23,254 nt of DNA from a virus: positions 1 through 23,254 of IMG/VR virus record IMGVR_UViG_3300037130_000020; one strand, written 5' to 3'. Of this stretch, positions 1,235 through 19,520 are shown in pieces. Position numbers and translations under genes: made by a program. The notes beneath the pieces were generated by a model. That model was not told the origin of the DNA. It did no database searches and saw only the letters and a list, made by a program, of their open reading frames with translations. Numbering within the stretch: the stretch's first letter is position 1; each line of letters starts with the position of its first letter.

Positions 1235-1459
1235 ATGGCACTAAACCTTAGAACAATCGACAAAGCGATACATGGGGAACTGAAGGCTGCCGCTGCGAAG
1301 GCAGGTCAAACACTGGAATCTTTCTGTGTGGAGTGTTTGACGCGAGAGATTCGCGGACACGTTGAGCGAAAGATGGCAGTAGTCAGCCCGTTGTCGGCGG
1401 CAACTCGTACGTCGGCTGTGAACCGTCCAACGTACACTCCGCCAAGGTTCAGAGTATGA
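1235..1459 (+). CDS. Ribbon-helix-helix (Arc/FitA-like) DNA-binding protein
   Basis: A 74-aa protein. Residues 1-40 (starting MALNLRTIDKAIHGELKAAA, then KAGQTLESFCVECLTREI) match the RHH pattern: a short beta strand followed by two helices, as in Arc, FitA and other antitoxin-type regulators that read 'RtIdkaihxeLKaaAakaGqTlE'. The C-terminal 35 residues are Pro/Thr/Arg-rich and look unstructured. It probably binds DNA as a dimer; the repeats at 1212-1234 are the obvious target. The frame is open to 1187, but ATG 1235 begins exactly at the RHH strand. No toxin gene is beside it: the next gene is the terminase large subunit, whose ATG overlaps this stop (ATGA). A stand-alone regulator is more likely than a toxin-antitoxin pair. 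Confidence 0.7.
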   Translation: MALNLRTIDKAIHGELKAAAAKAGQTLESFCVECLTREIRGHVERKMAVVSPLSAATRTSAVNRPTYTPPRFRV

Positions 1460-2973
1460 GCGAAGGATGGGAACGCGCTGTCATTGATCTGCGCAAGACC
1501 TACAGCCCTTATCCTCCCCAGGCTCGCTTCCATGCGTCTACGGCTCCATACGGCTTTCTAGGTGGCGCGGCCGGCCCTGGGAAGACTACGGCAATGCTGA
1601 TGGAGAACCTTATCAGCGTCAACGAATTCAACGCTGAGGATGGCAAGCAAGTCCAGACTTTGATGATGCGCCGCACACAGCCAATGGTGCGCAACACGCT
1701 CATCACCCGATTCCGTGAGAAAATCCCACAAGAGTTGTACAAGTCCTTCAACGAAACCACCTTGACCGTAAAGTGGCTCAATCGTGCAACGACGCAGTTT
1801 GGGTCTATGCAGTACGAGGCCGATGTGTTCGGGTGGCAGGGGCAATGGAAAGACATTTACTACGATGAACTGTGCGACTTCACCTGGGGGCAGTGGGCTA
1901 ATATCAGCGCGTGGAATCGTTGCCCTGTCAGCCCTTATGCTCGCCGCTTAGGAGCTGGTAATCCTGTTGGCGTGGGCTCGCCCTGGGTGCGTAAGATATT
2001 CGTTGAGCACCGTCCCTACGATGAGATGGACGCGGCGCAGAAGAGGGCTTACAACCCCAAGGACTACGCCTATTTTCCCTGCACCTATCTTGATAACCCT
2101 ATATTCGCAAACGATCCGCAGTTTATTGCAGGGTTGATGAGCCTGCCGGAACGCTTACGGCTGGCGTTGATGGAGGGATCGTGGGATGTGACAGGCGGAT
2201 ACTTCACGGGTGCATTCGATGGTGCGTTCAACGTCATCCCATCGGAGGAATGGAACCCGCAGCCGTGGCACCGGCAATGGATAAGCGGTGACTGGGGATT
2301 CGAGCATTGGTCTGCGCTCTATCGTCATTACATGGATGACTACGGAGTGATTCGGACAGGGCGGGAGTTGATGATCCAGCACCACGATCCTGAGATGCTG
2401 GGCGAACGGATTGTCGCATGGTTGGTGCAGGACGATGGCAAGTTCCCTAAGATTGTGGAGTTCCCGTTCAGTCACGATGCCTTCGCCACCACAACTACCA
2501 AGTCATTCGGAGCGACCGCGAACAGCGTTGCTATGCGCCTGGGTGCTGTACTGAGGCCATTTGGCATACCGCTGCCACTTAACTCGGGCAAGGACAAGTT
2601 GGGGCGCGAGCAGACGATGTACAACCTGCTGCGCAAAGAGATTTGGGGTGGAGAGAAGGTTGAGGGGCAGAAGAAGATGGTGCGCAACTGGCTCATCTGC
2701 GAGGATTGCCCCAAACTGATTGACACATTGATTGCGGCTCCGAGAGACGAAAAGCGTCCTGAGATGATTGCAAAGTTCAGCGGTGACGATCCATTGCAAG
2801 GGGCTGGGTATGGACTGTACCATATCGTCGGACGACCGGCTGCGATACCGCGTGAGGAGAAGCTGAGGCGTGAACTTGCGGCGACTCCCGATCCGATGGC
2901 GAACTACCTGATACAATTGCGGGAGTACGCAAGGCAGGAGAAGCAGGCTGACGGGGGCGAGTGGTGGAAATGA
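1456..2973 (+). CDS. terL: Terminase large subunit (ATPase and nuclease)
   Basis: A 505-aa packaging motor. Walker A is GAAGPGKT at residues 37-44 (Lys43). Walker B is IYYDE with Asp137 and catalytic Glu138. The C-terminal RNase H-like nuclease begins at ISGDWGFEHW with Asp279; SHDAFA near residue 342 and FSGDDP near residue 443 carry the other likely metal-binding acidic residues. It translocates DNA into the prohead through the portal and cuts the concatemer. ATG 1456 overlaps the preceding stop as ATGA, and its own stop overlaps the next ATG at 2970, so translation is coupled on both sides. Length is normal for the family. Confidence 0.95.
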   Translation: MSEGWERAVIDLRKTYSPYPPQARFHASTAPYGFLGGAAGPGKTTAMLMENLISVNEFNAEDGKQVQTLMMRRTQPMVRNTLITRFREKIPQELYKSFNETTLTVKWLNRATTQFGSMQYEADVFGWQGQWKDIYYDELCDFTWGQWANISAWNRCPVSPYARRLGAGNPVGVGSPWVRKIFVEHRPYDEMDAAQKRAYNPKDYAYFPCTYLDNPIFANDPQFIAGLMSLPERLRLALMEGSWDVTGGYFTGAFDGAFNVIPSEEWNPQPWHRQWISGDWGFEHWSALYRHYMDDYGVIRTGRELMIQHHDPEMLGERIVAWLVQDDGKFPKIVEFPFSHDAFATTTTKSFGATANSVAMRLGAVLRPFGIPLPLNSGKDKLGREQTMYNLLRKEIWGGEKVEGQKKMVRNWLICEDCPKLIDTLIAAPRDEKRPEMIAKFSGDDPLQGAGYGLYHIVGRPAAIPREEKLRRELAATPDPMANYLIQLREYARQEKQADGGEWWK

Positions 2974-17655: not shown

Positions 17656-17682
17656 CCTCCCGGCGCAAATCCTGTTTGGAGG
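17656..17682 (+). promoter_or_regulatory. SD-sequestering stem before the HNH gene
   Basis: CCTCC (17656-17660) is the exact complement of the SD GGAGG (17678-17682) with a 17-base loop. Pairing would hide the ribosome binding site of the gene at 17688. RBS-occluding stems are known for phage homing endonucleases such as I-TevI of T4. The stem is short, so the evidence is suggestive. Confidence 0.35.
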
Positions 17683-17687
17683 AACCG

Positions 17688-18194
17688 ATGCCTAAAGGCC
17701 ATTATACCCACAAACCACACGTTCCTAAACCTAGACCCATTGTAATTCCCATCGGCCCGTCGATAGCCTATGTGGAATTGACAAAAGGGAAGTGGGCTTT
17801 GATCGCAGTGGATGATATACCGAAAATCAGCGGACGGTGTTGGTTCTATCAACCTGGAGGATACGCCATGTCTCGCCACATTTATATGCACAGATTGCTG
17901 ACAGGTGCTCTTCCAAAAACGGAAGTAGACCACGCTAACGGTATAGGGCTACACAACTTACCTCACAACATGAGAGTTTGCTCTTCCTCTCAAAACAAGT
18001 TCAATAAAGGCAAAACTGCCCGGAATGCGAGTGGATTCAAGGGTGTGTCTGCGAGTAGGGGAAGTTGGTATGCCTGTATTGCCGTGGAAGGACACTCCAT
18101 GTCGCTTGGCCGATTCCCCACGCCTGAACTTGCCCACGTCGCCTACTGCGAAGCGGCCCAACGTCTCCACGGCGAATTCGCCAGAACGGAGTAA
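17688..18194 (+). CDS. HNH homing endonuclease with AP2 domain
   Basis: A 168-aa protein. Residues about 59-109 form an HNH_3-type nuclease: YAMSRHIYMHRLLTGALPKT with His68, then EVDHANGIGLHNLPHNMRVC with Asp81-His82 and Asn94, followed by SSSQNKFNK. Residues about 115-163 form an AP2-type DNA-binding domain (SGFKGVSASRGSWYACIAVE ... SLGRFPTPELAHVAYCEAAQ). This combination is the standard phage homing endonuclease, which cuts DNA and spreads its own gene. SD GGAGG stands five bases before ATG 17688; an in-frame TTG at 17676 overlaps the SD and is rejected. It is free-standing between two small genes, and its DNA looks richer in A/T than the neighbouring virion genes. Confidence 0.9.
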   Translation: MPKGHYTHKPHVPKPRPIVIPIGPSIAYVELTKGKWALIAVDDIPKISGRCWFYQPGGYAMSRHIYMHRLLTGALPKTEVDHANGIGLHNLPHNMRVCSSSQNKFNKGKTARNASGFKGVSASRGSWYACIAVEGHSMSLGRFPTPELAHVAYCEAAQRLHGEFARTE

Positions 18195-18527: not shown

Positions 18528-19520
18528 ATGGCGCGACAACAAACCGCACAGGCAAATCAGACATTTGGAACGGCAACCAACAACTCCGCGAACTACGGCG
18601 CGGATGCTTCGACCATCAACGGTGCGCTAACCCCGTTCCTCATGCAGCGACTCACGAATCCCCAAGGCTATTCGCAGGGAGACATGGGCGCGATGCTGGC
18701 GAATGCGATGGGTGGCGCGGGCGGCGCGACTTCGGGCATCACGGGACAGGCAAACTTGCAGGCAGGCCGTTCGCGGAATGACGCCGGATTCGGTACGGCA
18801 CTCGACGCGGCGGCTCGCGCTAGAACGGCTGCGGCGGCTGGCTCGGCGGAAGGGGTAGCTGCAAGCAACGCCAATCTGAAGCAGGATCAGACGAACAATG
18901 CGGCCAAAATGCTGCAAGGACTTTATGGGACGGATGTTGGAGCGCAGGGTTCTGAACTGAATACGGCAAACGATGCAACGGACGCTGCAACCAAGTCTGG
19001 ACAGAGCGGTTGGCTTCAGAATATGAATGCGATATGGGCGAATGCTAATAAGTCCGGCGACGTAGTAGCTTCCTTTATGTGCCCGATTGAAGGTTCCCTA
19101 TATCTACTACCAGACGGCATAGAAGTACCCGTTGAGACACTTAGAGTTGGAGATTTGATCGCCGGGATTGACGACGAAGCACAAACCATTGAGGAAATTG
19201 AAACTGGAACGGCACCATGCGTTGCAGTGACTACAGAAAATGGCTATACGGCGAAGAACTCCAATGTTCATGCTTACGCTCTACCTAAGGGCGGTTTTGT
19301 CGTAGCTACAAAGGCTCTCGGCAAGACCATCGTAACAACTGAAGGGCCGTCTAAGGTAGTCAGCGTTGACTCTATCGGTGAACATCTTGTGTTCAATATC
19401 ATCACGGACGGATCGCATACCTATCGTGTGGATGGAATCTGGGCGTTAGGGGTTGGGGATGCAGAGCGTCATGTGAGTATGGACACATGGAAGCGCATAG
19501 GTGAAGGGTTGGGTGCATAA
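18528..19520 (+). CDS. Virion-type protein with C-terminal Hint (hedgehog/intein) domain
   Basis: A 330-aa protein in two parts. Residues 1-184 are Ala/Gly/Asn/Gln-rich and helical (MARQQTAQANQTFGTATNNS ... MLANAMGGAGGATSGITGQA), like internal or ejection proteins of podovirus-like phages. Residues 185-330 form a Hint domain: Cys185 opens CPIEGSLYLLPDGIEVPVET, then LRVGDLI (block A), ENGYTAKNSNVHAYAL (block B, with SNVH replacing the usual TxxH) and VFNIITDGSHTYRVDGIWAL (block F). The usual C-terminal His-Asn and the following Cys/Ser/Thr are missing, so splicing is not expected, but an N-S acyl shift and cleavage before Cys185 is possible. The Hint part is visibly more A/T-rich than the first half. 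It is the first of three consecutive virion-type genes. Confidence 0.8.
   Translation: MARQQTAQANQTFGTATNNSANYGADASTINGALTPFLMQRLTNPQGYSQGDMGAMLANAMGGAGGATSGITGQANLQAGRSRNDAGFGTALDAAARARTAAAAGSAEGVAASNANLKQDQTNNAAKMLQGLYGTDVGAQGSELNTANDATDAATKSGQSGWLQNMNAIWANANKSGDVVASFMCPIEGSLYLLPDGIEVPVETLRVGDLIAGIDDEAQTIEEIETGTAPCVAVTTENGYTAKNSNVHAYALPKGGFVVATKALGKTIVTTEGPSKVVSVDSIGEHLVFNIITDGSHTYRVDGIWALGVGDAERHVSMDTWKRIGEGLGA

Follow-up and report, generated by a model that had tools for sequence, protein, structure and literature searches.

A C-terminal Hint domain recurring on a small ejection-type phage protein: a probable self-cleaving cap

The sequence analyzed here, called the window, is a 23,254-base virus record of IMG/VR from a soil phage. 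One of its genes probably encodes a small ejection-type virion protein that carries a removable, self-cleaving Hint domain as a C-terminal cap. The open reading frame, its frame and length and the codon of Cys185 are as an earlier note on this DNA had given them, and the SNVH sequence it had pointed to is present as S245-H248. The note had also stated that splicing signals are missing, and this stands: the Hint domain is the end of the protein, without an endonuclease insert, His-Asn or a C-extein. The N-terminal half, termed here the carrier, is rich in Ala, Gly, Asn and Gln (22% Ala, 13% Gly, 10% Asn) and is free of Cys. The features discussed are collected in Table 1.

Table 1. Positions of the carrier-Hint gene, its parts and its neighbors in the window
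Feature	Position	Strand	Remarks
Small ORF, 134 aa	17222..17626	+	shortly before carrier gene
HNH/AP2 homing-endonuclease-like ORF (HNH_3+AP2)	17676..18194	+	upstream of carrier
Carrier with C-terminal Hint fusion	18528..19520	+	complete ORF, 330 aa; small ejection-type virion candidate
Carrier part, residues 1-184	18528..19079	+	homologous to Hint-less proteins over residues 1-~167
Junction before Cys185	19029..19079	+	AIWANANKSGDVVASFM in place of the native Gly/Ala-rich tail of relatives
Hint domain, residues 185-330 (146 aa)	19080..19517	+	profile and alignment
Cys185 (Hint Cys1), predicted nucleophile; predicted cut before it	19080..19082	+	invariant, 8/8
Block B, S245-N-V-H248, equivalent of TxxH	19260..19271	+	S and H invariant, 8/8
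Block F, VFNIITDGSHTYRVDG, residues 288-303	19389..19436	+	eight-row alignment
Class signature W-A-L-G-V-G-D-A-E-R	19440..19469	+	replaces intein end V-H-N
Next ORF, 475 aa	19520..20947	+	start overlaps Hint stop; place of gp15-like ejection protein
ORF, 470 aa	20947..22359	+	place of gp16-like ejection protein

That the C-terminal half is a Hint domain, which the note had concluded from motif patterns, is borne out by profile comparison. Taken alone, the window protein matches Pfam Hint_2 at E 1.3e-3 with 19.6 bits, below the gathering score of 28.4 bits, and Hom_end_hint at E 0.11; tblastn gave weak matches, the majority of them to inteins or Hint proteins. In hhalign the Hint half scored 97.3% (E 1.6e-11) against a profile of six known Hint and intein sequences, versus 0.1% for the N-terminal carrier half, run against the same profile as a negative control. 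When the eight-member Hint family described below was used, the score was 98.9% (E 2e-17). Profile searches of the PDB, the kind of check that the note had proposed, returned in the significant range only inteins and one bacterial intein-like domain, aligned at Cys1; the best matches were 2lwy, a BIL domain (E 7.5e-5), and PI-SceI (E 9e-5). The nucleophile at position 1 and the block B motif [TS]xxH are both present, in the window (C185, S245-H248) and in all eight copies. AlphaFold models from a single sequence and from four sequences were poor (pLDDT 38 and 49, respectively) and too weak for a judgement of the fold; the latter is mostly beta. VIA-align of the poor model placed inteins in all of its top eight rows (Z 6.6-7.6), over some 56-63 residues of the first half only, and Foldseek with the pLDDT 49 model found nothing at E<=0.001, with Tudor domains ranked first.

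Is this arrangement peculiar to the window? Scanning IMG/VR with a degenerate DNA pattern for block F yielded 97 contigs, most of which encode inteins or Hint domains with an HN end. The class to which the window belongs was recognized in seven further phages (L042, L082, L084, L088, L109, L112, L130), where the pattern VFN[VI]ITxGSHTYxADG[VIF]W[AS]LGVG[DE]AER lies close to the end of frames of 344-402 codons; this family size is a lower bound because the search pattern required exact block F features. The seven Hints are 51-66% identical to that of the window, and pairwise identities among the copies are 48-76%. All eight proteins stop 7-25 residues past the AER motif, and His-Asn or a C-extein is found in none of them. 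The carrier preceding Cys1 has 184-203 residues (222 in L042, where the start is uncertain) and 18-24% Ala, and in seven of eight cases the residue before Cys1 is bulky and hydrophobic (F, M, I, Y or W). No member of the class was found among 50,697 phage records, or at E<=1e-12 in a sample of 591 bacterial genomes (398 Pseudomonadota and 193 Myxococcota, searched with no positive control from either phylum). An IMG/VR protein scan with a two-sequence alignment returned terminase inteins only.

Hint domains of other kinds were also seen in phage proteins. Very long tail-tip-like (gpJ-like) phage proteins have a Hint near the N-terminus, occupying roughly the first 120-180 residues, that finishes in VHN and is followed by a Gly-rich stretch (L046, L047, L055, L071, L083, L089, L090, L093, L096, L103, L115, L117, L120, L131, L132, L134, L135). 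Another set has Hints with a VxHNK end ahead of Pro-rich tails (L041, L050, L061, L052, L059, L062, L122, L133), and some of these proteins contain two Hint domains in tandem.

Within the window class, the residues invariant in all eight copies are, numbered from Cys1, C1, P2, G5, Y8, the Ser and His of SxxH, VFN, GSHTY, DG and AER. Synonymous changes among the eight Hints are saturated (pS 0.68-0.94) while nonsynonymous differences amount to 0.16-0.37 per site (pN); by this measure the domain is under strong purifying selection. This bears on the idea that the domain is a dying intein, a remnant that has lost its endonuclease and its C-terminal splice site. Such an origin would account for the homology to inteins and for the HNH-type endonuclease ORF lying shortly upstream, but it is very improbable given that the eight copies are placed exactly at the C-terminus, share the same non-HN end and are kept by selection, and that the HNH ORF occurs also in L001, a relative with no Hint. 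Weak PT-HINT matches in two of the eight members (best E 0.0066) raise the further thought of a polymorphic-toxin module that releases a toxin. This is exceedingly improbable, as nothing follows the domain in any of the eight proteins and there is thus no C-terminal cargo. These data contradict both readings.

What is the carrier? Where contigs are long enough, the carrier gene is found at the far end of the head-tail module, and the gene order is the same: ORFs of portal, scaffold, capsid and adaptor size, then a tail ORF 1.0-1.5 thousand residues long, then small ORFs, the carrier with its Hint, and one or two long ORFs. At the spot of the window's small ORF, three of the Hint phages examined have an ORF of 138-147 aa. 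Pfam and PHROGs name TerS and TerL in the window, and Pfam an SU10-type head-tail adaptor in L112; all other gene names in the module are assigned by position. In the order and the sizes of its genes, this neighborhood matches the ejection genes of T7-like phages. T7 gp14 resembles the carrier in having about 190-200 residues and in lying ahead of two long ejection-protein ORFs; it differs in having no Hint and no detectable sequence similarity to the carrier. Indeed, PDB and PHROG searches gave no sequence match between the carrier and gp14 or any named virion family, and no homology was detected between carriers of different lineages. The gp14 family diverges fast, so a distant homology of the carrier may escape such searches. 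The ejection-type label of the earlier note therefore agrees with gene order, size and composition and finds no counterpart in sequence matching; by position, size and composition, the carrier may be a gp14-like ejection protein. In T7, gp14 is a 196-residue protein, insoluble without detergent, that is the first to be ejected and forms a pore in the outer membrane (PMC8954989).

Endonuclease ORFs occur just upstream of the carrier in three phages: the window, L001 (5346-5873, 40% identical to the window HNH protein) and L082 (877-1290, Endonuclease VII type). There is none in L035. The upstream HNH ORF was considered as a part or vehicle of the Hint module and rejected, since it is carried by Hint-less L001.

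Two relatives of the window phage show the carrier without a Hint. In L001, whose surrounding genes are 84-94% identical to those of the window, the carrier has 191 aa; residues 1-~167 are common to both and the protein then ends in TGILSSLGGIGQLGTGAAAQGLKIR. In L035, where the genes on either side are 52-58% identical, it has 187 aa and ends in NVIQTLSGAATGAANAKKAFG. A Hint of the window class was not found elsewhere in the L001 or L035 records, both of which are possibly incomplete. Downstream of the graft, homology resumes at the next start codon. The Hint has thus either taken the place of the final residues of a protein some 190 aa long or been added to them, and a cut before Cys185 would restore one of normal length (184 aa). 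The two relatives, together with the same module in unrelated phages, agree with the earlier claim of a C-terminal graft acquired later. So does composition, the Hint half being A/T-richer as the note had remarked (GC 49.5% and GC3 43.8%, versus 58.7% and 60.3% in the carrier half). A GC3 equally low is found in 142 of 4,023 in-frame segments of the same length from the window's other genes, and the gap between Hint and carrier is smaller in the other seven phages. This contrast is consistent with the window's phage having gained the domain recently.

The Hints are more alike than the phages that bear them. Compared with their counterparts in L088, L109, L112 and L130, the window's portal-like and tail-like proteins reach only 21-27% identity, and this over parts of their length; between its long tail protein and those of L042, L082 and L084 no similarity is detectable. 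The Hint closest to the window's (66%) is that of L084, and the sister phages L001 and L035 have none. In the pair L042 and L112 the Hints are 76% identical, and neither the long tail protein (E 0.28) nor the carrier (z -0.2) shows detectable similarity. Because Hints 51-66% identical accompany remote or unrelated core genes, the domain is, judging from these identities, a module that is passed horizontally from one phage lineage to another and arrives each time at the same gene position.

Does the Hint release its carrier? From the conserved residues we infer a cut before Cys185. Two observations favor cleavage: Cys1, SxxH and the block F residues do not vary over eight divergent copies kept by purifying selection, and the predicted product has the native length. 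The fusion would be synthesized as a single chain, in which the Hint folds and an N-S acyl shift at the Met184-Cys185 bond, aided by S245-x-x-H248, converts the bond to a thioester. In the absence of a C-terminal His-Asn and of a C-extein nucleophile this thioester would not proceed to splicing; instead, water or some other small nucleophile would break it. Type B BIL domains, which have no block G, take this course and undergo cleavage but not splicing (PMC4031507). The analogy with these domains and with hedgehog makes the acyl shift followed by nucleophilic attack the likely chemistry. The freed carrier of 184 residues, the length of its Hint-less homologs, would then enter the virion, cleavage presumably coming before that step. 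By analogy with the properties of gp14, the cap may keep a pore protein that is membrane-active and of poor solubility in a soluble or inactive state up to the time of assembly. One point counts against a self-cleaving cap: Pro2 is invariant in the class, and the other Hints aligned have different residues at this position.

Pro2 and the invariant end W-[AS]-L-G-V-G-[DE]-A-E-R could be structural, which brings in the possibility that the Hint is catalytically silent and simply a structural C-terminal domain of the virion protein. We consider this rather unlikely, since Cys1, the block B Ser and His and block F are invariant across copies that are only 48-76% identical overall, two relatives manage without the domain, and an attached globular domain of about 15 kDa would presumably have to pass through the tail channel. 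Alternatively, the thioester might be passed to a specific nucleophile (a lipid, an amine or an amino acid side chain of some other virion protein), and the carrier would then be anchored or cross-linked through its C-terminus. The chemistry would be that of hedgehog Hint domains, likewise without HN, and the extension after block F, [DE]AERxVSMDxWxxIG, which is kept in most copies, could bind something. That said, the extension has only about 20 residues and is mostly missing from L082, and such a transfer is distinctly unlikely. In a wider form, a mobile self-cleaving Hint cassette of unrelated short-tailed phages would cap the pore-forming ejection protein and hand its C-terminus to a nucleophile, anchoring or cross-linking the DNA-delivery channel; this too we regard as unlikely. 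The preferred reading remains release of the carrier by simple cleavage.

Neither Hint domains nor BILs nor phage inteins are new in themselves, and the Hints known from phages are mainly inteins in replication and packaging genes. Like type B BILs, the window domain is a Hint by profile with Cys1 and blocks A, B and F, lacks the block G His-Asn and is expected to cleave without splicing; unlike them, it sits at the extreme C-terminus of a phage virion-type protein and has its own WALGVG[DE]AER end, and it is too distant in sequence to be placed inside the BIL families. C-terminal Hints of Tistrella (L016) and Myxococcus (L025, L027, L029) also lack HN, end in GILVGD or GLLVGD and are 27-29% identical to the window's across the domain, but belong to unrelated bacterial carriers, have a block F loop about 10 residues longer and lack Pro2. 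The hedgehog Hog domain is a C-terminal Hint with Cys1 that performs N-terminal cleavage only; there is no evidence of its sterol-recognition region in the window Hint. Phage inteins, as in terminases, helicases and the tape measure of Ruegeria phage DSS3-P1, share the occurrence of a Hint in a phage protein, but are internal, with an HN end and a C-extein. The DSS3-P1 match (L149) was accordingly rejected as a class member: it is an intein ending in HHN-T. It appears to be complete, starting at residue 539 of a protein annotated only as 'tail tape measure protein'.

Searches of the open-access literature turned up no account of a podovirus ejection-type protein that ends in a Hint domain. The recurrence of this Hint class at one gene position in unrelated phages, on a probable envelope-opening protein, suggests that autoprocessing has a part in building or firing the ejection machine. 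With this system one could test directly what keeps an insoluble membrane-pore protein harmless in the cell that produces it, and a compact self-cleaving C-terminal domain could serve as a laboratory tool.

It is of note that the large terminase gene of the window (1456-2973) is itself mosaic. Several contigs whose portal genes are >93% identical to that of the window have in common with it only the last ~74 terminase residues (55-59% identity), with a different terminase ahead of them.
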